Assembly (NCBI GenBank): GCA_902532565.1
Contig: CACAIR010000004.1
Span: 1 to 64,000 of the forward strand
From: an uncultured Pelagibacteraceae bacterium
GTDB lineage: Bacteria > Pseudomonadota > Alphaproteobacteria > Pelagibacterales > Pelagibacteraceae
Direction of reading: 5' to 3'
Length of the DNA stretch: 64,000 nucleotides
Shown here: piece by piece, positions 145-37,315 of the stretch
Layout of the letters: every line of letters begins with the position of its first letter
How positions within the stretch are numbered: the first letter of the stretch is position 1
Notes under the pieces: model-generated
What the model was told of the DNA's origin: nothing
Databases searched by the model: none
The model's input: only the letters and a program-made list of their open reading frames with translations
Program-made: the position numbers and the translations under genes

Positions 145-1545
145 TTACCTGGTTGCAGATAAAACTGCTTTTTCATCATCTTTAGCAGTTTCCATTATTT
201 CATAGTCTAGTCCAGCTATCTCTACTTCACGAGGGATTCTTAATTTACCCATACCGTGTAATATCTTAGCTATGACATAGCCTGGTATTAGTCCAAGAAC
301 AACAAACATTATAATTGCTCCTATAAACATACCTAAAGGATTTATAGCTGCATATGTTGTTCCATCCCACATTGCACCAACACTGTAACCAGATGATGGA
401 TAACCATTTAAGACAAAACCACATATTACTAGTCCAACAAATCCAGCATAACCGTGTACCGCTACTGCACCGACTGCATCATCAATTTTGAACTTACGTT
501 CAACCCAGTAATGTAGTTTGTAAGCAATCACAACACCGATCATACCTATGATCATTGATTGAATTGGATGATATAAATCATTTCCGGCAGACGCACATAT
601 AATTCCTGCTAGCCCACTAGAATATGTCCAGAAAGGATCACCCTTAGCAATTACATAACCTGCTAATAAACCACCTGATAATGACATCAAGAAATTCATT
701 GTAATACCACTAAGTGTAGTAGGAGTTACATAAATGTTAGTAGCCGTCCAATAAGATATACCTTCCATACCGTATTCTGGTCCAAGATCATAAATTGGGA
801 TATTACAAGCAGCATAGAAACCCCAAAATCCAGTATAAATTAGGAACAGTCCAATTGTTACTAACCAAGGATTTCTTGGTCCTATATTTCTTGGCTCACC
901 ACTTGATGAAAATTTTCCAATTCTTGGTCCTAAAACCATTAGAACACCAAGCGCAAATCCGCCTGCTATAGCGTGAATTACTCCTGATGCATATGCATCA
1001 TGGTATCCTAAAATTTTAAGCATCCATCCATCAAAGTGCCATCCCCATGCAGCATCAATCGTCCAGAATACTGAACCTATTGCAATCGCTAAAATTCCAA
1101 ATGCAAAAGTTGTAATTCTTTCGATAATTGCTCCAGAAACGATGGAAGCAGCTGTCCAAGAAAATAAAAGGAAAGCTGCCCAGAAAACACCAGATATATG
1201 GTCTCCTAGGTTGATCGCCATTAATTCACTTGTAGCTGTATACCATGTAGCACTAAATGCAGAATCATCTGTAACTAGCGCAGCACTTTCATTCATTATT
1301 GATGGTGCTAATCCCGGTCCTGTCGGGAAAGCCCAGTAAATCCACCAACCGAATAAAAACCAAGTTACTGTTACTAAAGGTATCAGCATCGTGTTTTTCA
1401 TAAGAGTATGTTGATGGTGTTTGTATCGAGAAGCTCCAACTTCATACATACAGAAACCGACGTGAATCAAAAACATCAGTACCACTGTTACCCAGTAGTA
1501 AAATTCTGTAAATATAGTAGTAAGAGCACCTAACTGATCAGTCAT
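145..1545 (-). CDS. amt: Amt-family ammonium or methylammonium transporter
   Basis: A 466-aa polytopic membrane protein of the Amt/MEP/Rh family, which moves ammonium or methylammonium across the inner membrane. About 11 hydrophobic segments can be read. The twin pore histidines are present as H191 (in GVIHAIAGG) and H364 (in AVHGYAGFVG). The first motif departs from the usual DFAGG-VVHI form (here DAYASGVIHAI), so this is a divergent paralogue. A GGAGAG ribosome site precedes the ATG. It lies downstream of the mgs/gmaS genes on the same strand and directly before a small membrane gene. The setting next to methylamine-assimilation genes suggests a role in methylammonium uptake or recapture of released ammonium; the substrate is not shown by sequence. 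Confidence 0.9.
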   Translation of the reverse strand: MTDQLGALTTIFTEFYYWVTVVLMFLIHVGFCMYEVGASRYKHHQHTLMKNTMLIPLVTVTWFLFGWWIYWAFPTGPGLAPSIMNESAALVTDDSAFSATWYTATSELMAINLGDHISGVFWAAFLLFSWTAASIVSGAIIERITTFAFGILAIAIGSVFWTIDAAWGWHFDGWMLKILGYHDAYASGVIHAIAGGFALGVLMVLGPRIGKFSSSGEPRNIGPRNPWLVTIGLFLIYTGFWGFYAACNIPIYDLGPEYGMEGISYWTATNIYVTPTTLSGITMNFLMSLSGGLLAGYVIAKGDPFWTYSSGLAGIICASAGNDLYHPIQSMIIGMIGVVIAYKLHYWVERKFKIDDAVGAVAVHGYAGFVGLVICGFVLNGYPSSGYSVGAMWDGTTYAAINPLGMFIGAIIMFVVLGLIPGYVIAKILHGMGKLRIPREVEIAGLDYEIMETAKDDEKAVLSATR

Positions 1546-1669: not shown

Positions 1670-2080
1670 TTAAAATTTTAGGTAAGCTTTTTTTAAATCA
1701 ACAAGTGGGTGTTTTGGTGACATTTGGAATTTAACCAAAAGTTCTCTAGCAATCATATCTCTATCTTGTTGATTATTTGGTAATTTTATTGATTTGGGTA
1801 TTGTAACCCAACCATTTGCATTCCTACAAAATACTGCAGGTCTTCCTTCTTCATATCCCATGTGAACATCCTCTAACCAATTTAAATCATCCCACCCCAT
1901 TGCCTCAACATATTTTTTTAGAAAAGGAGTTATTTTAGTATAGTCTGGAAGAAGATTAACATCATATCTATAACCAATTGATTGACCAATCATCTTCTCT
2001 CTTGCTGTTTCTTTTTTCTTACCTAATTGTTGATCTTTAAGAGTTATTGATTTTGATATTTTCTTTTTTTTTTTAGCCAT
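1670..2080 (-). CDS. Unknown lysine-rich protein in the mgs operon
   Basis: A 136-aa protein with a very basic N-terminus (MAKKKKKISK) and a mixed soluble remainder with several Trp and Gly residues. It has no signal peptide or membrane segment. It starts 8 bases after the stop of mgsC on the same strand, so it is probably the last gene of the gmaS-mgsABC transcript. I do not recognise a domain. The MAKKKKK start resembles that of the neighbouring mgsC product (MAKKKIKKKAKG), which may reflect shared expression or a local duplication of the start region. A function tied to N-methylglutamate synthase is inferred from position only. Confidence 0.75.
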   Translation of the reverse strand: MAKKKKKISKSITLKDQQLGKKKETAREKMIGQSIGYRYDVNLLPDYTKITPFLKKYVEAMGWDDLNWLEDVHMGYEEGRPAVFCRNANGWVTIPKSIKLPNNQQDRDMIARELLVKFQMSPKHPLVDLKKAYLKF

Positions 2081-2088
2081 AATTATAT

Positions 2089-3492
2089 TTAAATTTTATG
2101 ATAGTTATCAACACCAACTGTGTAGTTAGTTCCAGCCAATGGAACTTTTGCTAAAGCTGATGCTTCTGAAGTTAAAGCAGCTAAATCTTCAGGCTCTAGA
2201 GAGTGTATATTTGTTTTACCACAAGCTCTTGCTAAAAGTTGAGCCTCTAATGTCATCGAGTGAAGATAATTATAAACTCTTAATGCTGCATCATCAGGAT
2301 TTAATCTTGCTCTTAATTTAGGATCTTGAGTAGCTACACCAACCGGGCAACGTCCAGTATGACAGTGATAACATTCACCTGCTTTCACACCCATCTCTTT
2401 TTCAAAATCAGCCTCTGGAATGTCTTTATTACAGTTCAAAGCAATCATTGATCCAGTACCAATTGCTATTGCATCAGCACCTAAAGCTAAAGCTTTTGCC
2501 ATATCAGCGCCATCCCTTATTCCTCCAGCATATATCAGTGTTACTTTTCCAGTTTTACCAACATCATCTATCGCTCTTCTTGCCTCTCTGATTGCTGCAA
2601 TACCAGGAATTCCAGTATTTGCTGCTGCAATGTGAGGTCCTGCTCCTGTTGAGCCTTCCATTCCATCTAAATAAATAGAGTCGGGATCACATTTGGCAGC
2701 CATACGCACATCATCATAAACTTTAGAAGCGCCAAGCTTTAATTGAATTGGAACTTTATTTTTTGTCAGTTGTCTTAACTCCTCAACTTTTAAAGCTAAA
2801 TCATCAGGACCTAACCAGTCCGGATGTCTTGCAGGTGATCTTTGGTCAATTCCAGATGGCAATGATCTCATCTCTGCAACTTGATCAGTAACTTTTTGGC
2901 CCATTAAATGTCCACCCATACCAACTTTTTGACCCTGTCCAATAAAAACTTCGATACCATCAGCTAACTGTGCATGGTGAGGATTAAATCCATATCTTGA
3001 TTGAATACATTGATAATACCATTTTTCTGAATATCTTCTTTCATCTGGTATCATACCACCTTCACCAGAACATGTTGCACTCCCAGCCATTGTAGCCCCT
3101 CTTGCTAAAGCAGTTTTCGCTTCATAAGAAAGTGCACCAAAACTCATTCCAGTAATATAAACAGGAATGTCTAATTCAATTGGATTTTCACACCTTGGTC
3201 CAATTACAGTTTTAGTTTCACATTTTTCTCTGTAACCCTCAATTACAAATCTAGTTAACGTTCCAGGTAAAAAAACTAAATCATCAAAAGTAGGAATTTT
3301 TTTCATTAATGCCATTCCTCGCATTCTGTATCTTCCCAATTGAGATTTTATATGAATGTCGTCTATAACCTCTGGAGTAAAAATAGCATTATGACCTAGT
3401 AGGCTTTTATTTCTTTTTCCTTCTTCATATTTGTGTACATCTGCTTTTCCACCAACTCCTTTTGCTTTTTTTTTAATTTTTTTCTTAGCCAT
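2089..3492 (-). CDS. mgsC: N-methylglutamate synthase subunit C (glutamate synthase-like FMN/Fe-S subunit)
   Basis: A 467-aa protein matching the FMN-binding barrel of glutamate synthase. Visible marks are TGMSFGALSYEAK, the strongly conserved GEGGM segment, the phosphate-binding part IYAGGIRDGADMAKALALGADA, and a cysteine cluster CYHCHTGRCPVGVATQD that in the family binds a 3Fe-4S centre. In the N-methylglutamate pathway this subunit joins methylamine, from gamma-glutamylmethylamide, to 2-oxoglutarate to give N-methylglutamate. It overlaps the mgsB stop by one base (TAATG) and has a GGGAG ribosome site. The split into three genes (mgsA, mgsB, mgsC) is characteristic of this enzyme rather than ordinary GltB. 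Cytoplasmic. Confidence 0.9.
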   Translation of the reverse strand: MAKKKIKKKAKGVGGKADVHKYEEGKRNKSLLGHNAIFTPEVIDDIHIKSQLGRYRMRGMALMKKIPTFDDLVFLPGTLTRFVIEGYREKCETKTVIGPRCENPIELDIPVYITGMSFGALSYEAKTALARGATMAGSATCSGEGGMIPDERRYSEKWYYQCIQSRYGFNPHHAQLADGIEVFIGQGQKVGMGGHLMGQKVTDQVAEMRSLPSGIDQRSPARHPDWLGPDDLALKVEELRQLTKNKVPIQLKLGASKVYDDVRMAAKCDPDSIYLDGMEGSTGAGPHIAAANTGIPGIAAIREARRAIDDVGKTGKVTLIYAGGIRDGADMAKALALGADAIAIGTGSMIALNCNKDIPEADFEKEMGVKAGECYHCHTGRCPVGVATQDPKLRARLNPDDAALRVYNYLHSMTLEAQLLARACGKTNIHSLEPEDLAALTSEASALAKVPLAGTNYTVGVDNYHKI

Positions 3493-4346
3493 TATATTGC
3501 TCCCTTCTTTTCAGTAGGCTCTAAATTATCATAGTTCCAAAGTTTTTTACCTGCTACTATCTTTTTCATTTTACTAACATCAAATTTTTCACCAATCTCA
3601 GCAACTCTTAATTTTCTTTTAAGCCATTCTTGGTCGCTTTTAGTTAATTCAGCATCTACAGCATCACTACCATATGATCCAATTTCACCACCTACGAAAA
3701 TTGTCCCATCATACATAGAATCACCTAAATTTATCCCAACATTTCCTAAAATTATAATTCTGCCTCTTTGCATCATGAAACCTGTAAATGCTCCAGCATC
3801 ACCGCCAATAATGATAGTACCACCTTTCATATCAATACCAGTTCTTGCGCCTACGCTTCCTTTACAAATAAGATCTCCACCTCTTATAGCTGCACCAAAA
3901 CATGATCCAGCATTTTTTTCTATTACCACTTTACCAGCCATTAGATTTTCAGCACATGACCATCCAACTCTTCCATTTATTCTTACTATTGGACCATCGC
4001 ACGAACCCATTCCAAAATATCCTAAACTTCCTTCAAAAATTAAATTTAATTTATTGAGTATACCCACTCCCAAACTGTGTTTACCCTGTGGGTTTTTAAT
4101 AACTATTGTCCCATATCCTTGACTCATTAAATTATCAATTTCTTTGTTGGCTTCTGGAGCAGTCATATCTTTCACATCAAGTTCTGTTCTTTTATTAAAG
4201 TTTACATCGTGGGTACCAAAATAATAAAAATTTTCAGCCTCATCTGGGTTAAAAAACTTTTGCTGAGTTCTTCCTGTTAAGACTTCAGAATGCATACCCA
4301 TTGATTGGGCTTTTGATTTTTTAGATACGGTTTTTAAATTTGCCAT
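3492..4346 (-). CDS. mgsB: N-methylglutamate synthase subunit B (GXGXG beta-helix domain)
   Basis: A 284-aa protein whose centre (about residues 90-230) is a run of glycine-rich turns such as GSVGARTGIDMKGG and GGDAGAFTGF. This is the right-handed beta-helix (GXGXG) seen at the C-terminus of glutamate synthase and in FwdC. In the three-subunit synthase it links the amidotransferase and FMN subunits. It overlaps the end of mgsA by 13 bases and the start of mgsC by one base, so the three are translationally coupled. Nothing suggests degeneration. Confidence 0.88.
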   Translation of the reverse strand: MANLKTVSKKSKAQSMGMHSEVLTGRTQQKFFNPDEAENFYYFGTHDVNFNKRTELDVKDMTAPEANKEIDNLMSQGYGTIVIKNPQGKHSLGVGILNKLNLIFEGSLGYFGMGSCDGPIVRINGRVGWSCAENLMAGKVVIEKNAGSCFGAAIRGGDLICKGSVGARTGIDMKGGTIIIGGDAGAFTGFMMQRGRIIILGNVGINLGDSMYDGTIFVGGEIGSYGSDAVDAELTKSDQEWLKRKLRVAEIGEKFDVSKMKKIVAGKKLWNYDNLEPTEKKGAI

Positions 4347-5278
4347 ACTTTAACCTCCCCATCGAATGGATCATATGTATTAATTTCTTGAGGTAGAACT
4401 GATCTTATAGCTATTTCCTCCGAACCCATTGCTACCAAATCATCTGACTCATAAAGGACCAAGGGCTTTGCAGCCATCGTATCTTTTGCCATACCCAAAG
4501 AGTCTTTTGTAGCAACAAAATAAGTAAATACTCCATCCAAACCTGTAAGAGACTCTTTCATTCCTTCTTCTAAAGATGCCCCATCTCTCATTTTTTCAGC
4601 TAAATAAACAGCAATTAGCTCAGAGTCACATTCTGACATAAATCTCATACCTTTGTTTTCTAAAGCTCTTCTATTATTCCAATAATTAGTTAGTTGACCA
4701 TTGTGAACTACTGATACATCACTGAATGGGTAGCCCCAAAAAGGGTGAGCAGATTTAATATCTACCCCAGATTCAGTTGCCATCCTCGCGTGTCCAATAG
4801 CATGAGTTCCAACAACTTTATCTAAGTTATATCTATCACAAACCATTTTAGCGTTTCCAAGATCTTTAATTACCTCTAAAGATTTGCCCATTGATAGTAT
4901 TTCAACTCCTGGAATACTCTCTATTCTTTGAGAAAAATCTAATAAATCTTTTGTATTGTAATCAATTTCATATCTTAGTGAATATGGAAGAGTTCTTTCT
5001 TCTTTTACTATTTTAGCTCCAATCTCAGCTAAAGTTTGGTCTACAATTTTTTTTCTTTCATCATAAACTGATATGTCTTCAACTACTGATGAACTTCCTT
5101 CACCTACATTCTCTCCAACTTTAAAACGCATTATAAAATTTTTTCCATCTGTATCACCATACAAAGCGTAGCCAGTTGAATCCTCTCCTCTATGTTTTAA
5201 TGCCTGTAGCATTCCCTGCAATTCACTTCCAACATTTGAGGATTTACCTCTGTGTATTAATCCAGCAATTCCGCACAT
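4334..5278 (-). CDS. mgsA: N-methylglutamate synthase subunit A (class II glutamine amidotransferase)
   Basis: A 314-aa class II (Ntn) amidotransferase domain. The frame is open 30 codons further upstream, but the start is placed at ATG 5278 because the product must begin MCGIAGLI, with Cys2 becoming the N-terminal nucleophile after Met removal. The longer form would bury it and overlap gmaS. Other family marks are HRGEDSTGYALY, GHARMATES and VVHNGQLTNY. It is the amide-hydrolysing subunit acting with mgsB and mgsC, taking gamma-glutamylmethylamide as amide donor. It lies 23 bases after gmaS, its substrate supplier. Confidence 0.9.
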   Translation of the reverse strand: MCGIAGLIHRGKSSNVGSELQGMLQALKHRGEDSTGYALYGDTDGKNFIMRFKVGENVGEGSSSVVEDISVYDERKKIVDQTLAEIGAKIVKEERTLPYSLRYEIDYNTKDLLDFSQRIESIPGVEILSMGKSLEVIKDLGNAKMVCDRYNLDKVVGTHAIGHARMATESGVDIKSAHPFWGYPFSDVSVVHNGQLTNYWNNRRALENKGMRFMSECDSELIAVYLAEKMRDGASLEEGMKESLTGLDGVFTYFVATKDSLGMAKDTMAAKPLVLYESDDLVAMGSEEIAIRSVLPQEINTYDPFDGEVKVWQI

Positions 5279-5301: not shown

Positions 5302-6771
5302 CTATGGTAAACAATCTAGATAAGTATCTAGATCCCATTGAGTTGTAGCACCTAAAAACTTTTCCCATTCGTCATTTTTATACCAATGAAATATTTTATA
5401 CATTTCATCTGGCATAGCTGATTGAATCACTTTATCTTCAGAAAGTCGTTCAAGCGCTTCACCTAGACTTAAAGGTAATTTTTGAACACTTTTACCAGCT
5501 TTTTGAGCTTCATAAATATTTCTAGATTCAGGTTTGCCCGGATCAATTTTATTTGAAATTCCATCATCAAAAGCTTTTAATAGTGCCGCACCCATTAAAT
5601 AAGGGTTATGCATAGAGTCTACCGATCTATACTCAAATCTACCTGGAGCAGAAACTCTTAAACCACAAGTTCTATTTTGATATCCCCAGTCAGCATAAAC
5701 TGGTGCCCAAAAACCTTGGTCCCACAATCTTCTGTATGAGTTTACAGTTGATGATCCTATAGCAGTTAAGGCCGGTAAATGTTTCATTACACCTCCAATA
5801 GATTGTAATCCAACTTTTCCTGGTAATTGTACATCTTTAGTATCTGGCATAAATGTATTTGTTCCACCTTGAACATAAGTAAATACTTCATCAACGCCCG
5901 GTAAAGATTTATGTCCTAATTTATTTAAGACATCTTTTCCTCCTTTCCATAGAGACATATTGGTATGACAACCACTAGCAGAAACACCCATAAAAGGTTT
6001 TGTCATGAAACAAGCGATCAAACCGTGTTCTCTTGCTACTTGTGCACAAATTTGTCTGTAAGTTGAAAGTCTATCGGCATTTCTTAATACATCGTCAAAC
6101 ATCCAGTTTAATTCCAGTTGGCCTGGGGCATCTTCATGATCGCCTTGAATCATATCAAGACCCATTGCATTTGCGTATTCAATAACTTTCATAAATACTG
6201 GTCTTAATGACTCAAACTGATCTATGTGATAACAAAATGGTTTTGAAAACCCTTTCCCTGTAGGAGTACCATCTTCATTTTTAGTTAACCACATCATCTC
6301 AGGTTCTGTACCAACTCTCATTTGATAACCATGTTTTTTCTTAAATTCTTCAGCAATAATTCTTAAATTTCCTCTACAGTCAGAAGTTAAATGTCCACCT
6401 GGATTTTCTCTTTCTTCTCTATTTCTAAAACAAGTGCAATAAACTCTTGCTACCTTTTTGTCCCAAGGTAATTGAACAAACGTTTCTGGGTCGGGTATAC
6501 CAACTAACTCTTTAGCTTCTGGACCATAACCGATGTAATTATTGTGACGATCTAAAAATAAATTTGCAGTCGCTCCATAAACTAATTGAAATCCTTTTTC
6601 AGCAGTTCTTTCCCAATGATCTGCTGGAATACCTTTACCAACAATTCTTCCAGTAACGGAGATAAATTGAAAGTATATGTAAGTTATTCCTAACTCATTA
6701 ATTTTTTCTCTAACTTTTTTTATTAATTTTGCTCTTCCTGGTTGGTTAACGTGTTTTTCTAGATCTGTCAT
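5302..6771 (-). CDS. gmaS: Gamma-glutamylmethylamide synthetase (glutamine synthetase family)
   Basis: A 489-aa glutamine-synthetase-fold enzyme that ligates methylamine to glutamate with ATP. Visible GS marks include the metal-binding GTEPEM segment, GDHEDAPGQLELNW, and the ATP-binding KPFMGVSASGCHTNMSLW, a form typical of the GmaS/GlnT clade rather than GlnA. The C-terminal arginine region RVSAPGRFEYRSVDSMHNPY is also present. It has a GAGGGG ribosome site. It is followed by mgsA, mgsB and mgsC, which consume its product. GlnT-like glutamine synthetase activity is the alternative, but the context makes methylamine the likely substrate. Confidence 0.9.
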   Translation of the reverse strand: MTDLEKHVNQPGRAKLIKKVREKINELGITYIYFQFISVTGRIVGKGIPADHWERTAEKGFQLVYGATANLFLDRHNNYIGYGPEAKELVGIPDPETFVQLPWDKKVARVYCTCFRNREERENPGGHLTSDCRGNLRIIAEEFKKKHGYQMRVGTEPEMMWLTKNEDGTPTGKGFSKPFCYHIDQFESLRPVFMKVIEYANAMGLDMIQGDHEDAPGQLELNWMFDDVLRNADRLSTYRQICAQVAREHGLIACFMTKPFMGVSASGCHTNMSLWKGGKDVLNKLGHKSLPGVDEVFTYVQGGTNTFMPDTKDVQLPGKVGLQSIGGVMKHLPALTAIGSSTVNSYRRLWDQGFWAPVYADWGYQNRTCGLRVSAPGRFEYRSVDSMHNPYLMGAALLKAFDDGISNKIDPGKPESRNIYEAQKAGKSVQKLPLSLGEALERLSEDKVIQSAMPDEMYKIFHWYKNDEWEKFLGATTQWDLDTYLDCLP

Positions 6772-6843: not shown

Positions 6844-8190
6844 CTAACTCCAGGGAAATGGACTGTTCGAAGTAGGGTGTAATTCTCCCTTCTCGTAACG
6901 GTTGAATCTAAATGGTTTCAGCAAATCACTCTCTTGTCCTAAAATTTCTTTAGCAACTAATTCTCCAACCCCAATCATTTTATATCCGTGATTGGCATCA
7001 GCTATCATGTAAACGTTTTCTAAAAATCTATCAAAAATTGGAAAAGAGTCTGGTGTCATACATCCAAGTCCTCCTGAAGGTCCTTTTCGATATAAATCTG
7101 ATTTACCTTCAAATCTTTTTTGACAATGAGCAAGAGCCGAGCACCACATGTCATTAAAAGCCTCGGTTGTTTGGTATTCTGGTGAATCTATTCCATAAGG
7201 GTCAACATTTACTTCATCAAAATGTTTTTTTACTATATAAGGAGATGTCCCACCTTGAACTCCTAAACCTTCAATATCAGGTTTATAATAAATCCCCCAA
7301 ATTTTATCTGTAATTAATTTTTTTGTTTTATCTGAATATAATGGAGATGTTGAGTCAACGTGAATTACGGGAGGAGCTTTGCCGTTATTCATCTTTAAAA
7401 AGTCTGGTTCAACCCCAATCACACCCTCTTGCAACATCCAGTAAGTCCACATATCTGTTGTATGCATTTTACCATCTTTACCTTTAATGTTTGCAATTTT
7501 TGGAAGTTCAAGCATATTCCAAAAATCTCTAGCCCAAGGTCCTGCTCCAATAACTACTTGTTCGCAATCAATTGTACCTTGGTTTGTTTCAACACCAGTT
7601 ACTGCTTTACTATTGCTTCCTCTTTTAAATCCATTTACTTTGACACCTTTAATAACTTGAACACCATTTGTAGTAGATTTATTTTCAAGAGCCTTAATAG
7701 AATCTTTATTAAATGCATAACCACCTTTTTTTTCATGTAGGATTGAAGTAATTCCTTGAGCTTGCCAATCATCAAAAATACCTTTCATATAATTCATGCA
7801 GTCTTTTTCTCCTTCAATAAACTCTGAATCATAACCAATAGCTCTTTGTTGCTTATAAATCGATGCAACATCCTCGTGCATTATTTCGGGTGATATTTGT
7901 AAATATCCCACTGCATTGTATTTAAATGCTTCTGGATCGCTCTCCCAAACTGAAACTGAATGAGCCATTAGTTCTCTCATCGCTGGCTGAAAATAGTTAT
8001 TTCTGATTACACCACAAGCTATTCCGCTAGCACCAGCTGCAATATCTTTTTTTTCTAAAACGACAATGTCTCCTGGATTTTTATAAGTTTCAGATAATTT
8101 CCAAGCTGTGCTTAATCCGTGAATACCGCCACCGATTATTACTACTTTTGCTTTTGTCGGTAATGACATACTTACATCTTTATTTTTCAT
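6844..8190 (-). CDS. FAD-dependent oxidoreductase of the DAO/sarcosine oxidase beta type, substrate unknown
   Basis: A 448-aa protein with an N-terminal dinucleotide fold (VVIIGGGIHGLSTAWKL, about residues 15-31), an acidic second-strand end (VVLEKKDIAAGASG) and a C-terminal FAD-contacting segment (GGLGCMTPDSFPIFDRF then ADANHGYKMIGVG). This is the DAO fold of sarcosine, dimethylglycine and N-methyl amino acid oxidising enzymes. It sits between gmaS and the marR-tdm pair on the same strand, exactly between the enzymes that release dimethylamine and consume methylamine. No DMA monooxygenase gene set is visible in the window, so this is a candidate for a secondary-amine oxidation step. Translation may start at residue 1 or 8 (Met). 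The exact substrate is unproven. Confidence 0.85.
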   Translation of the reverse strand: MKNKDVSMSLPTKAKVVIIGGGIHGLSTAWKLSETYKNPGDIVVLEKKDIAAGASGIACGVIRNNYFQPAMRELMAHSVSVWESDPEAFKYNAVGYLQISPEIMHEDVASIYKQQRAIGYDSEFIEGEKDCMNYMKGIFDDWQAQGITSILHEKKGGYAFNKDSIKALENKSTTNGVQVIKGVKVNGFKRGSNSKAVTGVETNQGTIDCEQVVIGAGPWARDFWNMLELPKIANIKGKDGKMHTTDMWTYWMLQEGVIGVEPDFLKMNNGKAPPVIHVDSTSPLYSDKTKKLITDKIWGIYYKPDIEGLGVQGGTSPYIVKKHFDEVNVDPYGIDSPEYQTTEAFNDMWCSALAHCQKRFEGKSDLYRKGPSGGLGCMTPDSFPIFDRFLENVYMIADANHGYKMIGVGELVAKEILGQESDLLKPFRFNRYEKGELHPTSNSPFPWS

Positions 8191-8251: not shown

Positions 8252-8602
8252 TTAAAAACTCAAATGTTTAAGGGTTTCAAGATATTGATTAAATTCTTGA
8301 ATAAATGAAACGCTGGGCTTTATATGTTTTTTTCTTTGATCATCTGAAGTTTTTTCTAAGAAAAAGAAACCTTTTTCACAAGCTTCATTTATCATCAAAG
8401 CAGATTTAGGACGCGATGTTTTAAATAATTTCGTTTTTAATTCTTCCACAGTTAGTTTCTCTTTGTATTTATAAGCATGCATTACTAACAGCATCATATG
8501 ATAATGAGATGGTGATTTTCTAAAAAAATAGTTACTGGATGTATGAGATAACTTCATTTGATCCTCCCAAAATTCTAACAAATCTTTTGTAGTTTTTGGC
8601 AT
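8252..8602 (-). CDS. MarR-type winged-helix transcriptional regulator
   Basis: A 116-aa protein with the layout of a compact MarR regulator. It has an N-terminal helical part, a helix-turn-helix region (about residues 53-80: LTVEELKTKLFKTSRPKSAL) and a wing signature (TSDDQRKKHIKPS) corresponding to the D-x-R motif of MarR wings. Its ATG overlaps the tdm stop by one base (TAATG), so it is translationally coupled to TMAO demethylase and probably controls the methylamine genes. The ligand is unknown. It is shorter than typical MarR proteins (about 140-150 aa), lacking part of the dimerisation helices. Confidence 0.7.
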   Translation of the reverse strand: MPKTTKDLLEFWEDQMKLSHTSSNYFFRKSPSHYHMMLLVMHAYKYKEKLTVEELKTKLFKTSRPKSALMINEACEKGFFFLEKTSDDQRKKHIKPSVSFIQEFNQYLETLKHLSF

Positions 8603-10941
8603 TAAGAACGAACTCTTGTCTTTTTTGGATCAAAATGAGGAAATTGTACAACTTTCGCAGAAATTCTTTTTTGGTGACCATCTATTTTTCCAACCTCAAC
8701 CTCTGTTCCTGGCTCTGAGTATTGAGTATCTATTCTGCAAAGTGCTATATTTTTATTAAGAGTTGTTGATAAACAACCACTTGTTATTATTCCAACCTGG
8801 GATCTTCCAACATGCACACAATCTCCATGACCAGCATGTTCTTTTCCAATAAGATCTAAACCAACAAGTTTTTTTTGTGGATTTGATTTCCGTTCTTTTA
8901 GAATTTCTTTTCCTATAAAATCCTCTTCTTTAGTTTTGAGTGGAACTGTGAATCCAATCCCAGATTCAAAAGGATCTTGCTGTCCATCAAATTCATTACC
9001 AAATAAAATTAAACCCGCTTCAATTCTTAATTTATCTAAAGCCGCAAACCCTGCAGGAATTAAACCATGATCTTTTCCAGCCTCCATAAGTTTATCCCAA
9101 ACTTCAGGAGCATTTTTTGGGTGACACCAAACTTCATAACCAAGTTCACCCGTATAACCTGTTCTTGAAACTATTAAAGGAATACCCTGAAGTTCTTCAA
9201 CTCTACAAATTGTAAACCTAAACCATTCTAATTCATCTATTGAAGGTTGAGTAGGAGGAGTAAAAATTAATTTTTTTAAGATTTCTCTACTTTTAGGCCC
9301 CTGAATAGAAACATTACTAATTTGATCTGTAGAATTTTTTACATTTACCTTGAAGTTTTTTTTCTTTGCTACTTCTTTTAACCATTCACCAGCATATTCA
9401 TCTCCACAAATCCATCTAAAACCAGTTTCACTTAATCTTAATAACGTGCCATCATCAAACATCATTCCATTTTCATAACACATTGCAGAATAAACAACTT
9501 GACCAACAGAAAGCTTTTTAATGTTCCTAGTGAGTGTGTAGTTCATTAATTCTTCGGAATCTGGCCCTATAATTTCAAATTTTCTTAAAGAAGATAAATC
9601 AATCAGAACAGCTTTTTCTCTGCACGCATTATATTCCTCGACTACACCATGCTTAGTATAATCATTAGGTAACCAAAAACCTCTAGCATCAATGAAGTTT
9701 CTAGTTAATTTTGATGTCCTTTCATAAAAACCAGAATTTCTAGTAAGTTTTTTTTCGGAGTCTGTTTTCATTCTAAATGCAAATGATTTTGAAAATTCTT
9801 TATTTTTGTCATAGGTTCTAACAAAAATATCAGTTGGATTCCATGAATTACATGCATCAATATCACTTGGACATGCAGTTGTTCCAATAGTTAAATCTTT
9901 AAGTGCTCTAAACATTACATAATCTCCAGGCCTAGCAAATGACTCATCAGAAATTACAGAATTTAATCCTGAAGCTGAAGTGTTAAAAAATAAGTTAATA
10001 GCATGCCAACCTTTTTGTTTTTGAATGCCATATTTAGACATGGAGGCTGTTAAATTGTCAGAGCAGTTTGAGTGACCAAAATAGCCAGCATCCTCATAAT
10101 ATTTTGAAGTACAAGCAAGGTTAAATGTGTCATGCTTGCCAACAGTATCTCTAATTACCTCAACTAATGGTTCATGATCAGTGTCATAAAATTTTGAAAA
10201 TAATCCTGGCCCAGGAAAAGTATTACCCATAAAAGTTCTTGTTGTTTGCCAATCAAGACCTTTTTCAATTTTTTTGTCTAGCTTTCTCGTGTCAAATGCA
10301 ACAAAATCAGAGCATTGCCTTCCTGCTGGGCTAATAACCTGAATGTAATCTCCTTCTTTCACTTGATAAGAAATTGAACTTTCTCTATCAATATTTTTTT
10401 CAAAAATAGGTTCATAAATTGGATCAGGTATGACTGATAACTCTTTATCATTAACTATTTTTGACCTTTTTATAAATATAGTTAAATCACTTGATGGATT
10501 TTGATCACTAACCAACATATCATTTTGTGGTGCTGAAAAAATCACATAACATTTATCTTTTGATTTGATTTTTATTTTTTCACCACTCGGAGATTGATTA
10601 TCAAATAAAATTGAGCATATAGATTTATCTATATCCAAATTTCTTTTTTTTAATTGAAGGTTAGTAACTAAAGAACTTTCATCTTTTCTTTTTAGTATTT
10701 TTTTTATAAAACTTTCTTTAGAACTTTCTTTTAAACTAAGAATTCCAATTTCAGATTTTCCATCTTTATCAAAACAAATTATTTCACAGATTTGATTTCC
10801 TTCATCATTAATTATTTCTATTTCATCATCTGGAAAAATTTGTAAACCAGTAATACCACCTGCATTTACAACATGTCGTTCAACCCCAGGTGGTAATACA
10901 TTAAGTCCTGGTTCTTTAATATCTAGAGTAGTTTGCGACAT
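8602..10941 (-). CDS. tdm: Trimethylamine N-oxide demethylase (DUF1989 plus GcvT fusion)
   Basis: A 779-aa two-domain protein. Residues about 180-375 form a DUF1989 domain carrying C277, C293 and C357. This 16/64 spacing is the same as I recall for the three zinc-binding cysteines of Methylocella Tdm. Residues about 410-779 form a folate-binding GcvT domain (IDLSSLRKFEIIGP, SRTGYTGELGYEVW, ending in RVRS). The family converts TMAO to dimethylamine and formaldehyde, with THF capturing the formaldehyde. An extra N-terminal portion (1-170) precedes the DUF1989 domain. It is divergent from the TMAO importer gene tmoX across a 100-base region and coupled to a MarR regulator. Cytoplasmic. Confidence 0.92.
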   Translation of the reverse strand: MSQTTLDIKEPGLNVLPPGVERHVVNAGGITGLQIFPDDEIEIINDEGNQICEIICFDKDGKSEIGILSLKESSKESFIKKILKRKDESSLVTNLQLKKRNLDIDKSICSILFDNQSPSGEKIKIKSKDKCYVIFSAPQNDMLVSDQNPSSDLTIFIKRSKIVNDKELSVIPDPIYEPIFEKNIDRESSISYQVKEGDYIQVISPAGRQCSDFVAFDTRKLDKKIEKGLDWQTTRTFMGNTFPGPGLFSKFYDTDHEPLVEVIRDTVGKHDTFNLACTSKYYEDAGYFGHSNCSDNLTASMSKYGIQKQKGWHAINLFFNTSASGLNSVISDESFARPGDYVMFRALKDLTIGTTACPSDIDACNSWNPTDIFVRTYDKNKEFSKSFAFRMKTDSEKKLTRNSGFYERTSKLTRNFIDARGFWLPNDYTKHGVVEEYNACREKAVLIDLSSLRKFEIIGPDSEELMNYTLTRNIKKLSVGQVVYSAMCYENGMMFDDGTLLRLSETGFRWICGDEYAGEWLKEVAKKKNFKVNVKNSTDQISNVSIQGPKSREILKKLIFTPPTQPSIDELEWFRFTICRVEELQGIPLIVSRTGYTGELGYEVWCHPKNAPEVWDKLMEAGKDHGLIPAGFAALDKLRIEAGLILFGNEFDGQQDPFESGIGFTVPLKTKEEDFIGKEILKERKSNPQKKLVGLDLIGKEHAGHGDCVHVGRSQVGIITSGCLSTTLNKNIALCRIDTQYSEPGTEVEVGKIDGHQKRISAKVVQFPHFDPKKTRVRS

Positions 10942-10981: not shown

Positions 10982-11010
10982 TTGACTATCTTTTTACTTA
11001 AGCACATACT
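10982..11010 (+). promoter_or_regulatory. Probable sigma-70-type promoter of tmoX
   Basis: TTGACT (10982-10987) and CATACT (11005-11010) are separated by exactly 17 bases and lie 31 bases before the tmoX ATG. The downstream leader carries an AGGGGA ribosome site. Confidence 0.55.
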
Positions 11011-11041
11011 GATAACTCTTAATATTAAGAAAGGGGAAATA

Positions 11042-11986
11042 ATGCGAAAAATAATATCATTAATTTCTGCAGCGATAATCGCAGTAGTAAGTTTTGCTGG
11101 ACTATCAAATGCAGATAGCAAAAAACCCATCGTAATTCCAACACACAATTGGTCAAGTCAAATTGTAATGGCTTACGTTATTGGTGGAATAATGGAAGAC
11201 ATGGGCAACAATGTAAAATATGTAAATGCTGACTCACAAGCAGTATACGAATCAATTAGAATTGGTGACGTTACTATATCTCACGAAGTATGGGAATCTG
11301 CTTTTGGAAAATCATTTACAACAGCTCTTGATAAAGGTGGATTGCTAGACTGGGGAGACCATGAAGCAAGAACACTTGAGGATATGGGATATCCTAATTG
11401 GGTTGCTGAAAAAGGATTATGCCCAGGACTACCAGACTGGACAGCTTTAAAAAATCCAGACTGTGCTAAAAATTTTACAACACCTGATTCACCAGATGGA
11501 AAAGGAAGAATGTTGGAAGGTCCACAAACTTGGCATGGTGATTTAATTCCACAAAGGGTTGACGCTTTAGGTTTAGGCGATCTATGGTGGGTTAAATTTG
11601 CTGGAAGTGCTGATGCACTTTGGGCAGAGTTAGCAGCAGCTGAAAAAGAAGGAAGAGGAACAATTATCTTTAACTGGACACCAAACTTTACTGATGGTGC
11701 TGGTTTTACATTTATCGACTTTCCTCCTTACACTGCAGGTTGTAGACCTGAGGATGGCGGAGATGGAAAATGTGGTTCGCCAGATGGTTATTTGAAAAAA
11801 GCAGTTAATGCTGATTTTCCAAAAACTCATCCTGATGCAGCAGCAATGTTCAAAAAACTTTCTTTCTCAACAAGTCAGATTGGTGCAATGGCAGCTCTAG
11901 TTGACATTGATAAAATGACTCATGAGGATGCAGCTAAAAAATGGTTGAAAGATAACAAGAAAGTTTGGAAAGCTTTTACTAAATAA
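11042..11986 (+). CDS. tmoX: TMAO-binding periplasmic protein of the TmoXVW ABC importer
   Basis: A 314-aa substrate-binding protein starting at ATG 11042, chosen because of the AGGGGA site and because residues 1-25 then form a clean signal peptide (MRKIISLISAAIIAVVSFAG, cleavage near SNA-DS). It belongs to the glycine-betaine/OpuAC binding fold. It is rich in tryptophan (W37, W84, W104, W120, W133, W164, W182, W183, W212), consistent with the aromatic cage that holds the quaternary or N-oxide head group. Four cysteines (127, 141, 234, 244) may form disulfides. Downstream are its own terminator and, after three small genes, tmoW and tmoV. Divergence from tdm makes TMAO the likely ligand; betaine or choline are alternatives. 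Confidence 0.9.
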   Translation: MRKIISLISAAIIAVVSFAGLSNADSKKPIVIPTHNWSSQIVMAYVIGGIMEDMGNNVKYVNADSQAVYESIRIGDVTISHEVWESAFGKSFTTALDKGGLLDWGDHEARTLEDMGYPNWVAEKGLCPGLPDWTALKNPDCAKNFTTPDSPDGKGRMLEGPQTWHGDLIPQRVDALGLGDLWWVKFAGSADALWAELAAAEKEGRGTIIFNWTPNFTDGAGFTFIDFPPYTAGCRPEDGGDGKCGSPDGYLKKAVNADFPKTHPDAAAMFKKLSFSTSQIGAMAALVDIDKMTHEDAAKKWLKDNKKVWKAFTK

Positions 11987-13546: not shown

Positions 13547-14575
13547 ATGTCTGAGCCAGTTATCAAATGTGAAAATGTATATAAAATATTTGGAGCAAAT
13601 GCTCAAAAAATGCTTCAAGACTCAAATGGCAATGTTGATGCTAAAACTTTCCAAGAAAATGGGTGTATTGTAGGTGTGAACAATGCTTCCTTTGAAGTTT
13701 CAAAAGGAGAAATGTTAGTTGTTATGGGCTTATCAGGCTCAGGTAAATCAACTTTATTAAGATGTATATCCAGATTAACTGATGCAACAGGTGGTAAAAT
13801 TTTTATAGAAGGTCAGGACCTCTTACAACTAAATAATAAAGATCTAATAGATCTTAGAAGAAATAAAATGGGAATGGTTTTCCAAAGCTTTGCTTTACTT
13901 CCACATAAAACTGTAGTTGAAAATATAGCCTTCCCACTTCAGATTAAAGGAATCAAGACTGAAGACAGTATTAGCAAAGCAATGGATATGGTTAAATTAG
14001 TAGGACTTGACGGTAGAGAAAACTATTTTCCAAGAGAACTTTCAGGAGGACAACAACAAAGAGTAGGTATTGCAAGATCATTAGCAGTTGAGCCAGATAT
14101 TTGGTTTTTAGATGAGCCTTTTTCAGCTTTAGATCCATTAATTAGAAAAGAGATGCAAGATGAGTTTTTAAGACTTCAAGAAAAGTTACAAAAAACGATC
14201 ATGTTTATTACACATGATTTTGATGAAGCTCTAAAACTTGCTGACAAAATTGCAATAATGAAAGATGGAATAATTGAGCAGTTAGACACACCAGCTAATA
14301 TTGTTTTAAACCCAGCTACGGAATATGTCAGAAAATTTACTGAAGAAGTACCAAGAGAAAAAGTTTTATTGATTGAGGATGTCATGGAGTTATCTAAAGA
14401 CAATTTAGGTGACTTAAAAGTTTCAAAAGATGAAATCATAGAGAATGTTGCAGAAAAAATTCTTACTCAAGAAAAAATAGTTGCTGTAGTTGATAATAAT
14501 AATGAAATTATAGGATCTATTAACCCAACCAAAATTATAAATACAGTCTTTGGAGGAAGAAAAAATAACAATTAA
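13547..14575 (+). CDS. tmoW: ATP-binding subunit of the TMAO ABC importer
   Basis: A 342-aa ABC ATPase with Walker A GLSGSGKST (61-69), Q-loop Q113, signature LSGGQQQR (165-172), Walker B WFLDEP (186-191) and H-loop ITHDF. After residue 270 there is a regulatory tail with a CBS-like segment (IVAVVDNNNEIIGSINP), as in ProV and OpuAA of betaine importers. It is followed three bases later by the permease gene tmoV. Family and context fit TMAO import; general betaine transport is the alternative. Inner-membrane cytoplasmic face. Confidence 0.9.
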   Translation: MSEPVIKCENVYKIFGANAQKMLQDSNGNVDAKTFQENGCIVGVNNASFEVSKGEMLVVMGLSGSGKSTLLRCISRLTDATGGKIFIEGQDLLQLNNKDLIDLRRNKMGMVFQSFALLPHKTVVENIAFPLQIKGIKTEDSISKAMDMVKLVGLDGRENYFPRELSGGQQQRVGIARSLAVEPDIWFLDEPFSALDPLIRKEMQDEFLRLQEKLQKTIMFITHDFDEALKLADKIAIMKDGIIEQLDTPANIVLNPATEYVRKFTEEVPREKVLLIEDVMELSKDNLGDLKVSKDEIIENVAEKILTQEKIVAVVDNNNEIIGSINPTKIINTVFGGRKNNN

Positions 14576-14578
14576 ATT

Positions 14579-16732
14579 ATGGAACTTTTAAAAAAATATC
14601 CAAAAACTTTTCAATGGTTATTTTTATTAATTGTATTTTTTGCTTTATGTTTTGCGATCGATGTCCCTGAAACATATAAGTTCATTAGAGGCCAAGCAGA
14701 ATTTGTGAAAGATCCTAATCAAAGCAGTTATGTATTTTTAGGAAAAGAAGTAAGATATTATGCTTTCGATGTCTTCTGGAGACTGCCTCCATTGCTTGGA
14801 TGGTTGCCTATTTGGATTAATGACTCATTATTTTTCTTAATGAACGACTGGATGCCAATTGAAATTTGGAATGAAGATACTCAAGAATTTAAAAGTCGTC
14901 CGATAGTTTTACAAATAAGCAGAAATTTGACTGCATTCATGACTTTTTTGATAGAGTTAATAAGAGAGATATTATTAGGTGGTCTTGAAACTATAGTTGC
15001 GTTTACTAGTTGGGATTGGATAGATAAAAATCCATGGGCTGAATTACCAGGATTACCTTGGACAATTGTTGCAGCAGGTGCAGCGCTTCTTTCATATAAG
15101 CTTAGTGGTAAAGGTCTAGCTTTATTCGCGGGTTTAACTATGGTTTACATTTCTGTATTTGGTCAATGGAAACCTTCTATGCAAACACTTTCTTTTATAT
15201 TAGTTGCTGCTCCATTATCTTTTATTTTTGGTTTAGGATTGGGGATAGCAGCTTTTAAAAGTAAACGAGTAGAAAAAGCTTTATACCCAATATTACTAGT
15301 AATGCAGACAATGCCACAATACGCTGTATTGGTTCCAGCGCTAGTTCTTTTTGGAGTGGGTGATCATGCTGCAGTGATTATTACTATGGTTGTAGCAATA
15401 CCTCCGATGATTTTATTAACTCTATTAGGTTTAAGAGCAGTCCCTCCAGAAGTTATTGAAGCAGGTAGAATGAGTGGATGCAATAATTTTCAATTAATGT
15501 TTAAAGTATTAATTCCTACTGCTAGGAGAGATATTTTAATTGGAGTTAATCAAGTCATCATGGTGTGTTTTTCAATGGCAGTTATATCAGCCTTTATTGG
15601 TGCAAAAGGTTTAGGATTTAATTTACTATTAGCACTAAACCAATTAAATATTGGATTAGCTTTAGAGGCAGGCTTATGCATCAGTTTAATTGCAATTCTT
15701 TTAGATAAGATGTCTTTGGCATGGGCAAATAAACAAACAGATTATTTTGGTAATCTTACCTTCTACCAAAGAAACAAAAATCTTTTATTTTTCGGTGTTA
15801 TATTTGTCATTGGGATAGTACTAGCTTATATTGGAAATTATTTATTTAAAGATACTTTTAATTATTTATTCGAAATTCCCCATAACAAAGGAATATCGAC
15901 TGCCGATTTTTGGAATAAAGGAGTAGATTGGATTTTTGATACTTTCTTTATTTATATTAAAGCTTTCAATACATGGTTGATACAAGATGTGCTTCAACCT
16001 ATGAGAGCTTTGTATTTAAGAATGCCTGCAATCGCTACAATAGTTTTGGTTGTTGGTGCGGGATATTTAATTGGTGGTTTACGTTCAGCATTAGTAGTTT
16101 GTGCTTTAACTTTATTTATTGCATTCAGCCCTTGGTGGGATAGAGCTTTGGTCACAGCATATATGGCAACTTTCGGAGTCATCGTTTCTTGTATTATTGG
16201 ATTTACCGTAGGAACTTTATGTTTCCAAAATAAACACTCAGCAAACTTTATGTTGGGAGTATGTGATATTTTCCAAACTTTCCCTTCATTTGTATACTTA
16301 ATTCCTGTAATGATGTTATTTGGTATCACTGACACTTCTGTATTAATAGCAGTAATAGTTTATGCAACTATACCTGCAACAAGATATACAATTGAAGGTC
16401 TCAGAAGTGTTCCGGCTGGACTGCATGATGCAGCAACTATGTCAGGTGTAAATAAATTTCAAAGATTAACTAAAATAGAATTTCCTTTGGCATTCCCACA
16501 TATGATGCTTGGTATAAATCAAACGATTGTATTTGCTTTATTTATGGTTATCATCGGAGCATTTATTGGAACAGAGGATTTAGGTCAATATATATTAAAA
16601 GCATTATCAGATAAAAAAGGTGCTGGAATTGGATTAACACTTGGAATCTGTGTAGCTTTCATAGCTTTAATATTTGATAATTTAATTAGAGCTTATGTTC
16701 AAAAAAGAAAAAAACACCTCGGTATCGATTAA
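14579..16732 (+). CDS. tmoV: Double-length permease of the TMAO ABC importer
   Basis: A 717-aa protein with two fused permease domains. Each has an EAA-type cytoplasmic loop: EVIEAGRMSGCNNFQLMFKV (about residues 285-304) and LHDAATMSGVNKFQRLTKIE in the second half. The doubled layout is known for TmoV-type permeases, where one chain replaces a homodimer. It is directly downstream of tmoW. It ends eight bases before the convergent tmm gene, leaving almost no intergenic space. Confidence 0.9.
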   Translation: MELLKKYPKTFQWLFLLIVFFALCFAIDVPETYKFIRGQAEFVKDPNQSSYVFLGKEVRYYAFDVFWRLPPLLGWLPIWINDSLFFLMNDWMPIEIWNEDTQEFKSRPIVLQISRNLTAFMTFLIELIREILLGGLETIVAFTSWDWIDKNPWAELPGLPWTIVAAGAALLSYKLSGKGLALFAGLTMVYISVFGQWKPSMQTLSFILVAAPLSFIFGLGLGIAAFKSKRVEKALYPILLVMQTMPQYAVLVPALVLFGVGDHAAVIITMVVAIPPMILLTLLGLRAVPPEVIEAGRMSGCNNFQLMFKVLIPTARRDILIGVNQVIMVCFSMAVISAFIGAKGLGFNLLLALNQLNIGLALEAGLCISLIAILLDKMSLAWANKQTDYFGNLTFYQRNKNLLFFGVIFVIGIVLAYIGNYLFKDTFNYLFEIPHNKGISTADFWNKGVDWIFDTFFIYIKAFNTWLIQDVLQPMRALYLRMPAIATIVLVVGAGYLIGGLRSALVVCALTLFIAFSPWWDRALVTAYMATFGVIVSCIIGFTVGTLCFQNKHSANFMLGVCDIFQTFPSFVYLIPVMMLFGITDTSVLIAVIVYATIPATRYTIEGLRSVPAGLHDAATMSGVNKFQRLTKIEFPLAFPHMMLGINQTIVFALFMVIIGAFIGTEDLGQYILKALSDKKGAGIGLTLGICVAFIALIFDNLIRAYVQKRKKHLGID

Positions 16733-16739
16733 TCTTAGA

Positions 16740-18071
16740 TTATTTATCTAAAAAAGTTTTTGAAGAGTCATCCATAGCAGTTGCCCATGGTGTATGATGA
16801 ATAGGAGCAACAGAACCAGTTACGGGAGATGTAAAAGATTTGTTTCTGTAAGTTAAAATATCCTCAACTTTATGATGTTCCCACTCTTTAAAGTGTTTTC
16901 TTATTAATTCAAAATCAATTTTTGGGTAATCTGACATTTCATGAAGTTCTTTTGTATAATCAGTCTGGAAATCAATCATTTGATCTGGGTTTTCAAGCTT
17001 TTCTTCCATTGCAACCCATTTATTAATATCTTTTTCAACTTCACCATTCCCAGGTATCTTGATCTTATTCATAATTACATCTCTAGCGTACCAAGCTTGG
17101 CAATCAAACATATTAAATGTATGAAATTGATCTTGCATACCAAGATATAAAAGTTTGTGATTATTTTGCCAAACTACTCCTTTATATAATTTTGGTGGAT
17201 ACAATCTATTTCCAGTTTTTAATTGTAAATTTTCCTCTAAAAAAGGAAAATGATGAAGATAACCAGTGCATAAAATTAAGACATCAGCTTCTTGCTCAGT
17301 TCCATCTTTGAATATTGCTTTTTTTCCAACTAATTTATCCAGATAATGAACTTCTTTCATACCCTCTGGCCATTTAAATCCCATCGGATTGTGTCGATAA
17401 CCAATGGTAACACTTTTGGCCCCGTATTTATTGCATTGAAGCGCAATGTCCTCTGCTGAATAACTACTTCCTAGCACTATTACATTTTTATTTCTAAATT
17501 CCTCCGCATCTCTAAAATCATGAGAATGCATTATTCTTCCTGGAAATGTGTCCATACCTTCGTATTCTGGAATAAATGGAACTGAAAAATGACCTGTTGA
17601 AACAACAACATAATCAAAATTATCTTTTAATATTTTATTATTAACTTTATCTTGATAACTAAGCTCAAATTTGTCATTTTTAAAAATTGTATTTATAACT
17701 CTTGTATTAAATTTTATTTTTTTTTTTAAATTACCTTTACTTACTCTTCCAACAATATAATTATATAAAACTTCTCTAGGTGGAAAGGATGGTATTGGCT
17801 TTCCAAAATGTTCATCAAAAGAATAATCTGCAAATTCTAAACACTCTTTTGGTCCATTGGACCAAAGATATCTATACATGCTGTTAGGTACGGGATCTCC
17901 ATATTGATCTGATCCTGTTCGCCAACTATAATTCCATAAACCACCCCAATCTTCTTGTTTTTCAAAACAAACTATTTCAGGGATTTTCTCACCTTTTTTT
18001 TTTGCTAATTCGAATGATCTGAGCATGGATAAACCACATGGTCCTGCTCCTATAATCGCTACTTTTGTCAT
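16740..18071 (-). CDS. tmm: Trimethylamine monooxygenase (bacterial flavin-containing monooxygenase)
   Basis: A 443-aa FMO that oxidises trimethylamine to TMAO with NADPH and O2. It has the FAD motif GAGPCG (8-13), the FMO identifying motif FPGRIMHSHDF (176-186), the NADPH motif GSSYSAED (201-208) and the late DVLILCTGY segment. Length and order match characterised Tmm proteins. It is convergent with tmoV and divergent from the GpsA-like gene. With tdm and tmoXWV nearby, it completes TMA entry into the pathway. Other FMO substrates such as dimethyl sulfide are possible. Confidence 0.92.
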   Translation of the reverse strand: MTKVAIIGAGPCGLSMLRSFELAKKKGEKIPEIVCFEKQEDWGGLWNYSWRTGSDQYGDPVPNSMYRYLWSNGPKECLEFADYSFDEHFGKPIPSFPPREVLYNYIVGRVSKGNLKKKIKFNTRVINTIFKNDKFELSYQDKVNNKILKDNFDYVVVSTGHFSVPFIPEYEGMDTFPGRIMHSHDFRDAEEFRNKNVIVLGSSYSAEDIALQCNKYGAKSVTIGYRHNPMGFKWPEGMKEVHYLDKLVGKKAIFKDGTEQEADVLILCTGYLHHFPFLEENLQLKTGNRLYPPKLYKGVVWQNNHKLLYLGMQDQFHTFNMFDCQAWYARDVIMNKIKIPGNGEVEKDINKWVAMEEKLENPDQMIDFQTDYTKELHEMSDYPKIDFELIRKHFKEWEHHKVEDILTYRNKSFTSPVTGSVAPIHHTPWATAMDDSSKTFLDK

Positions 18072-22239: not shown

Positions 22240-22509
22240 ATGCTTTATATTAATTGTCCACACTGTGGAATGAGATCTCAAAATGAATTTTCTTATGGTG
22301 GAGACGCAAGTGTTAAAAGACCATTATTGAACAAAGAAGTTTCTGATCAAGAATGGGACGATTTTGTTTATAATAGAAAAAGTTTGAGAGGAAAACATTT
22401 GGAGCTTTGGCATCATATTTCTGGGTGTAGGCAGTGGATCAAAGTCGAGAGGGACACTTCAACTCATGAAATATTTAGAACATTTAAGGCTGATGAGGAA
22501 GTTGTCTAA
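22240..22509 (+). CDS. mgdB: N-methylglutamate dehydrogenase / sarcosine oxidase delta subunit
   Basis: An 89-aa SoxD-type subunit with an N-terminal CPHCG metal motif, and later a histidine pair and cysteine (WHHISGC) that complete the zinc site known for this subunit. It begins directly after the beta gene and overlaps the next start (ATG in TAATG at 22509). It is structural, not catalytic. The alternative name is soxD. Confidence 0.9.
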   Translation: MLYINCPHCGMRSQNEFSYGGDASVKRPLLNKEVSDQEWDDFVYNRKSLRGKHLELWHHISGCRQWIKVERDTSTHEIFRTFKADEEVV

Positions 22510-37276: not shown

Positions 37277-37315
37277 TTATAGGTGTGGCGAAATTTGTTG
37301 CCAAAAATTATGCTC

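Follow-up and report, generated by a model that had tools for sequence, protein, structure and literature searches.

An intact open reading frame of 448 amino acids on the minus strand (6844-8190) of the window, that is, of the whole 64,000-nucleotide stretch of Pelagibacteraceae DNA that was analysed, encodes a flavoenzyme (hereafter DAO) which probably demethylates dimethylamine (DMA) after this amine has been attached to glutamate. We put at about even the chances that DAO acts as N-demethylase in a second cassette of the N-methylglutamate type, one serving dimethylamine in alphaproteobacteria that lack DmmABC. More tentatively, and at a little short of an even chance, we propose that a complete, undescribed and oxygenase-free DMA pathway, running via gamma-glutamyl-dimethylamide and N,N-dimethylglutamate, replaces DmmABC in SAR11 and other alphaproteobacteria, with the flavoenzyme as its N,N-dimethylglutamate demethylase. 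According to this scheme, Tdm would release DMA, which a GmaS-like ligase (GS') would join to glutamate to give gamma-glutamyl-dimethylamide, and Mgs'ABC would shift the dimethylamino group onto 2-oxoglutarate to yield N,N-dimethylglutamate. DAO, with FAD, would then oxidise one N-methyl group to leave N-methylglutamate together with formaldehyde or methylene-THF, and MgdABCD would take off the second methyl group. The substrates and products named here for GS', Mgs' and DAO are those that we infer from the genes themselves, their families and order, their co-occurrence and the active-site residues they retain.

The preliminary description of this DNA had placed the flavoenzyme exactly between gmaS and tdm. 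The genes do share a strand, with tdm upstream, and a 116-aa ORF (8252-8602) separates tdm from DAO. The order on the minus strand is tdm, 116-aa ORF, DAO, GS', mgsA', mgsB', mgsC', 136-aa ORF and amt, and a divergent tmoX/tmoW/tmoV group, followed by tmm and a soxBAG set, adjoins this run (Table 1). The window would therewith hold candidates for the conversion of TMA via TMAO to DMA and for the oxidation of N-methylglutamate, and none of a known kind for the DMA step. For mgsA', the start giving MCGI was chosen, while the ORF list places an ATG upstream, at 5368. The 116-aa protein may be a regulator; its best Pfam match has an E of 0.07 and the NCBIfam search gave no match, and a MarR-type assignment was an impression by eye which no model backs.

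Table 1. Features of the window that bear on methylated amine metabolism, with their positions and the basis of each name.
Feature	Position	Strand	Basis
Divergent Amt-family transporter	145..1545	-	PF00909 4.8e-52; TIGR00836 177 bits, below cut-off 343
136-aa ORF	1670..2080	-	no Pfam/NCBIfam match; 10-row alignment; follows mgsC' in cassettes of other families
mgsC', glutamate-synthase-like FMN subunit	2089..3492	-	PF01645 6e-89; 49-53% identity to MgsC paralogues
mgsB', GXGXG-domain subunit	3492..4346	-	PF01493 2.2e-14
mgsA', class II glutamine amidotransferase-like subunit, N-terminal Met-Cys	4334..5278	-	GATase_6/7; MCGI start
GS', GmaS-like amine-glutamate ligase, proposed gamma-glutamyl-dimethylamide synthetase	5302..6771	-	TIGR03105, 7cql, pocket residues
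DAO-fold flavoenzyme, proposed N,N-dimethyl-amino-acid (N,N-dimethylglutamate) demethylase	6844..8190	-	PF01266, clamp, SoxB profile match
116-aa ORF between tdm and DAO, SAR11-conserved	8252..8602	-	14-row alignment
tdm, TMAO demethylase, dimethylamine source	8602..10941	-	NF053776 1081.8 bits, just below cut-off 1100; DUF1989 + GCV_T
tmoX-like substrate-binding protein, TMAO/betaine ABC transporter	10982..11986	+	PF04069 1.1e-37
tmoW/tmoV-like ABC ATPase and permease, two ORFs	13547..16732	+	TIGR01186 334.8, above 326.6; TIGR03416 339.1, below 363
tmm, trimethylamine monooxygenase	16740..18071	-	NF058570 734.7 bits, above cut-off 675
soxB/soxA/soxG (mgdABCD-like), candidate N-methylglutamate dehydrogenase	20983..26089	+	TIGR01373 666.9 and TIGR01372 1319, both above cut-off; soxG 59.7, below 143.95

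That the frame encodes a DAO-fold flavoenzyme, as the preliminary description had it, is borne out by a match to PF01266 (E 1.4e-34; 120.6 bits against a gathering threshold of 27.9), which spans only positions 1-225 of the 353 in the model, and by a conserved N-terminal FAD-binding dinucleotide motif, G-x-G-I-H-G-L-S; both place it in the DAO superfamily. Its nearest NCBIfam model is SoxB (TIGR01373), reached with 83.2 bits against a cut-off of 529.45, and monomeric sarcosine oxidase (TIGR01377) gives 38.2 bits against 479.65, so that it belongs to neither family as modelled. The solved chains closest to it are sarcosine oxidase beta subunits (best 1.9e-15). DAO is homologous to SoxB/MgdA, the beta subunit of heterotetrameric sarcosine oxidase and N-methylglutamate dehydrogenase (hhalign 99.6%, E 8e-24, 369 columns), and has a carboxylate clamp in common with it. 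Unlike SoxB/MgdA, however, it has a long middle stretch without counterpart, ends in a conserved HPxSxSPFPWS tail and, in the window's run, lacks accompanying genes for alpha, gamma or delta subunits. Two other assignments were considered and discarded. A covalent-FAD monomeric sarcosine oxidase is out, since C377, the sole Cys near what we take to be the place of the FAD-linked cysteine, is A, C or G across the aligned rows. Dimethylglycine dehydrogenase, which carries a C-terminal GcvT-type folate domain, is out as well, as the 448-aa protein has no GCV_T match and a separate DAO+GcvT protein lies at 44046-46478. A structure of DAO predicted from 34 SAR11 sequences reached a pLDDT of 38 and was not used as evidence.

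The clamp bears on the choice of substrate. In the Sox family, Arg52, Tyr55 and Lys348 form salt bridges with the substrate carboxylate (PMC12582975). DAO has R63, Y66 and K404 at the matching positions, without exception in the 37 aligned orthologue rows, the 5 divergent rows and the 34 SAR11 rows; these residues are common to both SoxB paralogues, differ in the DAO+GcvT protein, and are paired with the same clamp residues in the DAO-SoxB profile alignment (369 columns). By this mark DAO is a Sox-type amino acid oxidase. With the clamp invariant and no carboxylate on DMA, the free amine is unlikely to be the substrate, and a form of DMA bound to glutamate would fit better; the clamp is common across the Sox family and could also have another role. 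The preliminary description had DAO fill the dimethylamine step; the link to DMA is upheld by the distribution data given below, and direct oxidation of free DMA is doubtful given the clamp and the finding that the neighbouring ligase is a different one. Such direct oxidation, to methylamine and formaldehyde, with the methylamine taken up by GS'/Mgs' or by canonical GmaS/Mgs, is an alternative to which we would give only a small share of the probability. The same set of genes would suffice for it, and a free amine needs no partner ligase, in keeping with the three genomes that have DAO without GS' (G357, G045 and G004). It would, however, make the invariant clamp useless, and it leaves unexplained the two parallel ligase/synthase cassettes in 28 of the 39 GS'-bearing genomes, mgsABC being seen there on the fetched stretches only.

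The neighbour at 5302-6771 had been called gmaS. It scores 309.6 bits with the GmaS model TIGR03105, whose cut-off is 469.6, and so fails as a canonical GmaS by score; among solved structures that of GmaS, 7cql, comes up with E 5.4e-49, after an archaeal and other glutamine synthetases. In the relatives of the window's genome, the canonical GmaS set follows amt. The paralogue beyond amt in genome G012 reaches 623.9 bits with TIGR03105 and 7cql at 1.4e-172, is 28% identical to GS', and is accompanied by a separate mgsABC set whose identity to that of the window is 33 to 52%. Judged by its sequence, the neighbour is therefore not a canonical GmaS but a paralogue, GS', with its own mgsABC, and the true GmaS lies beyond amt in the relatives. 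By residues, GS' does resemble GmaS: the amine-pocket residues of RhGmaS, K30, Y147, Q175, D177, E179, E186 and N188, are kept in 17 of 17 aligned rows, and Asp50' of the ammonia-using enzymes is lost in all of them, V or W standing at the position given for it. A conserved 10-residue insertion in the Asp50'-loop sets the 17 GS' rows apart from five GmaS rows. The roles of these residues are taken from PMC7948447, which also gives RhGmaS as poor with DMA (Km 16 mM, kcat 2.57/s). With the pocket kept, Asp50' gone and the loop extended, GS' looks like an alkylamine-glutamate ligase with a changed amine specificity. A reading as the gamma-glutamyl-putrescine system (PuuA/PuuB) is out, as GS' scores 223 bits against 650, and we know of no part for mgsABC in that route.

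The cassette resembles the methylamine system GmaS-MgsABC-MgdABCD, in which the genes of a ligase, a three-subunit synthase and a flavin demethylase likewise stand together and whose ligase has the pocket residues kept in GS'. It differs from this system in a ligase that falls below the GmaS cut-off and carries the 10-residue insertion, in the extra 136-aa ORF and in a demethylase of one subunit. Of the 39 genomes with GS', 28 have canonical GmaS as well; GS' is thus no mere duplicate of GmaS, and the coexistence speaks for an amine of its own. The same parallel also invites the reading, improbable in our estimate, that DAO is an N-methylglutamate dehydrogenase of one subunit, with GS'/Mgs' forming a second route for methylamine. 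The carboxylate clamp would suit such an enzyme. Moreover, canonical GmaS was not found in 11 of the 39 genomes, including the window's own (G000), where a methylamine role for GS' is conceivable; that genome is 66.85% complete, and its contig starts 144 bases from the end of amt. Against this reading, the route would often be doubly redundant, with soxB/soxA near DAO and canonical GmaS in 28 of 39 genomes, and the exclusion of DmmC would have no explanation.

Conservation was followed in 61 genomes, comprising the window's own, 36 of its genus and 24 of its order. Orthologues of DAO, 64-93% identical to that of the window, are present in 20 of the 60 relatives (21 of 61 with the own genome). 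Tdm matches (1e-100) occur in 19 of the 61; 17 of these are near full length, and all 17 genomes have DAO. The remaining two, G022 and G026, have Tdm relatives that are shortened, lying in open frames of about 500 aa and covering positions 9-485 or 10-477 of the 763 in the model, and have no DAO. Four genomes with DAO gave no tdm call; in three, DAO lies at or near a contig end, and G023 carries a fragment of tdm at the contig end. GS' (1e-150) was found in 17 of the 61 genomes, all of them with DAO, and of the four with DAO and no GS' call, two (G028, G030) are truncated at contig ends, G004 retains a remnant, and in G045 none was found. Among the best-scoring 80 of 581 confirmed stretches, which are not a random sample and whose record names, all Pelagibacteraceae, Pelagibacterales or Candidatus Pelagibacter ubique, mark the window as SAR11, GS' is the next recognised gene after DAO in 80 of 80 loci; in these same best-scoring 80, the 116-aa ORF stands upstream of DAO in 73, and the other seven are at contig ends.

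The association extends beyond SAR11. In 385 alphaproteobacterial genomes, searched at 1e-150 for tdm, 1e-60 for DAO, 1e-120 for GS' and 1e-80 for the GmaS model, tdm was found in 34, DAO in 47 and GS' in 39. DAO and GS' occur together in 32 (Fisher 1.6e-28, with relatedness uncorrected), and in 25 of these DAO lies on the same strand at most 1.5 kb upstream of GS', two pairs being farther apart and five on different contigs. The block DAO-GS'-mgs'ABC-136-aa ORF recurs in the families f9, f18, f36, f39, f50, f81, f83, f88, f125 and f149 (the numbers are search labels). Among 398 genomes of the phylum, GS' was found in three, all Alphaproteobacteria, one being the window's own.

Dimethylamine monooxygenase was followed by PF11927, named HODM_asu-like by Pfam, which we take to be a marker of the DmmC subunit; strong matches in G312 and G343, no more than 15 kb from tdm, indicate that the marker works. 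It had no match in any of the 61 genomes, among them G012, a single contig that is 100% complete. The preliminary description saw no multi-subunit monooxygenase and took a dmm set elsewhere in the genome as one part of what would refute its reading; the former is confirmed and no such set was found, with the weight of the absence in the window's own genome lessened by the incompleteness of that genome. Across the 34 tdm-bearing alphaproteobacteria, the cassette and DmmC show an almost complementary distribution: 27 have GS' (24 with DAO), five have strong DmmC, none has both and two (G319, G395) have neither (Fisher p 7.5e-5). The 27 comprise 26 found by search and G406, where GS' is cut at a contig end; the values for G000 come from the 61-genome searches and those for the other 33 from separate searches. 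Counted by 18 families, 13 have GS', four strong DmmC, none both and one neither (p 0.0016). When three weak PF11927 matches are included, two tdm-bearing genomes have both GS' and DmmC (p 1.4e-4). For DAO alone, 25 of 34 have it and one of them also has DmmC (p 0.012). The GS'/DmmC tests ignore relatedness within and between families. The cassette would thus occupy the same pathway position as DmmDABC of Ruegeria pomeroyi, downstream of Tdm; unlike that system, it is made up of unrelated genes, includes no oxygenase gene and, in the 61 genomes searched, occurs without PF11927.

A further alternative is that the cassette serves a different amine, such as ethylamine, a breakdown product of betaine or another N-methylated compound, with DAO acting on the matching N-alkyl amino acid and the link to tdm reflecting a shared habitat. 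This is consistent with the absence of tdm from 13 of the 39 GS'-bearing genomes and with several neighbours of DAO, namely an MTTB-family methyltransferase in G317 (27% identical to one that adjoins the divergent DAO of G116), a Rieske oxygenase in G219 and, in G238 and G334, an MmgE/PrpD protein together with genes of an ABC transporter that by eye looks peptide-type. We regard it as unlikely, since GS' was found by search in 26 of 34 genomes with tdm against 13 of 351 without, GS' and strong DmmC never occur together in the 34, and GS' is packed close to tdm in SAR11, f67, f77 and f82. Several of these neighbours could make N,N-dimethyl compounds or use N-methyl compounds, which would fit an N,N-dimethyl amino acid as substrate of DAO, whether or not it is that of glutamate. 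A Rieske-type oxygenase at 37283-38527 of the window, perhaps a betaine demethylase, is 43% identical to the one in G219.

Other neighbourhoods of DAO agree with a substrate carrying two N-methyl groups. In G256 a single run reads DAO-GS'-mgs'ABC-136-aa ORF-soxB-soxA, and soxB immediately follows DAO in G236 (with GS' on another contig), G332 and G045. The mgd-like soxB/soxA genes are in the same run as DAO, or near it, in these four genomes and in G254, and such a pairing of two demethylases fits the removal of two methyl groups. The proposed pathway is weakened, on the other hand, by genomes in which DAO occurs without GS', by GS' without DAO in three tdm-bearing genomes (G131, G137, G426; seven of 39 in all), and by the 13 GS'-bearing genomes without tdm. 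DAO occurs without GS' in 15 of 47 genomes, a number that falls to seven once seven divergent or partial matches, and G406 with its GS' cut at a contig end, are set aside. In G357, a SAR11 genome on one contig (99% complete), DAO is retained along with the 116-aa ORF, and searches for tdm (1e-150), GS' (1e-120) and the GmaS model (1e-80) gave no match. In G045 (92% complete), tdm, DAO and soxB are present and neither GS' nor the GmaS model gave a match, and G004 keeps DAO and canonical GmaS with only a remnant of GS'. The lack of a working GS' partner in these three favours a free or imported substrate there. At L165:7761-11123 of G357, DAO and the 116-aa ORF have as neighbours a likely glycerol kinase and ABC transporter genes, both identified by eye.

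SAR11 has been described as lacking dmmDABC, which was interpreted as a marine bottleneck for DMA that feeds aerosols of this amine, with no evidence at that time for DMA oxidation by SAR11 (Lidbury 2017). With TMAO as its only source of nitrogen, strain HTCC1062, which lacks dmm, shows weak growth, and an isoenzyme has been suggested (PMC8918994); this growth counts for an alternative DMA cassette. In the same strain SAR11_1304 has been termed 'monomeric sarcosine oxidase' and tied to sarcosine or unknown substrates and not to DMA (Sun 2011, PMC3160333). It is probably the DAO orthologue by gene position, as it adjoins SAR11_1303, a GcvT-like aminomethyltransferase in the position of tdm, and SAR11_1302, a transporter, as in the window. 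The same study assigns glxBCD and glnT to SAR11_1313-1316, which by position would fit the canonical GmaS set rather than the cassette of the window. No description of the cassette was found in the open-licence literature. If the proposal is true, the cassette would fill the SAR11 DMA gap noted since 2017, and naming it makes that gap testable in E. coli; the bottleneck estimate could be lower, because counts of dmm genes alone would miss the cassette. The gmaS gene has been described as a validated methylamine biomarker. A GS-like gene beside mgsABC-like genes in SAR11, however, need not be GmaS.

Several smaller observations concern the subunits of the cassette. The 136-aa protein is strongly conserved behind mgsC' (orthologues on L171, L173, L174, L181, L199, L215, L219, L202 and L214) and had no match beside the canonical mgsABC of L185, L219 and L223; it is perhaps an extra subunit of Mgs'. 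In mgsC', three cysteine columns are present in 6 or 7 of 7 Mgs'C rows and in none of the three canonical MgsC rows. A further type of GS' in G326 and G433 (L226:7789-9255, L227:7909-9375), 63-66% identical and with W at the A48 position, adjoins another GS-like gene and has no mgsABC match beside it. Second copies of GS', 55-63% identical, occur in G223, G225, G321, G349 and G398.
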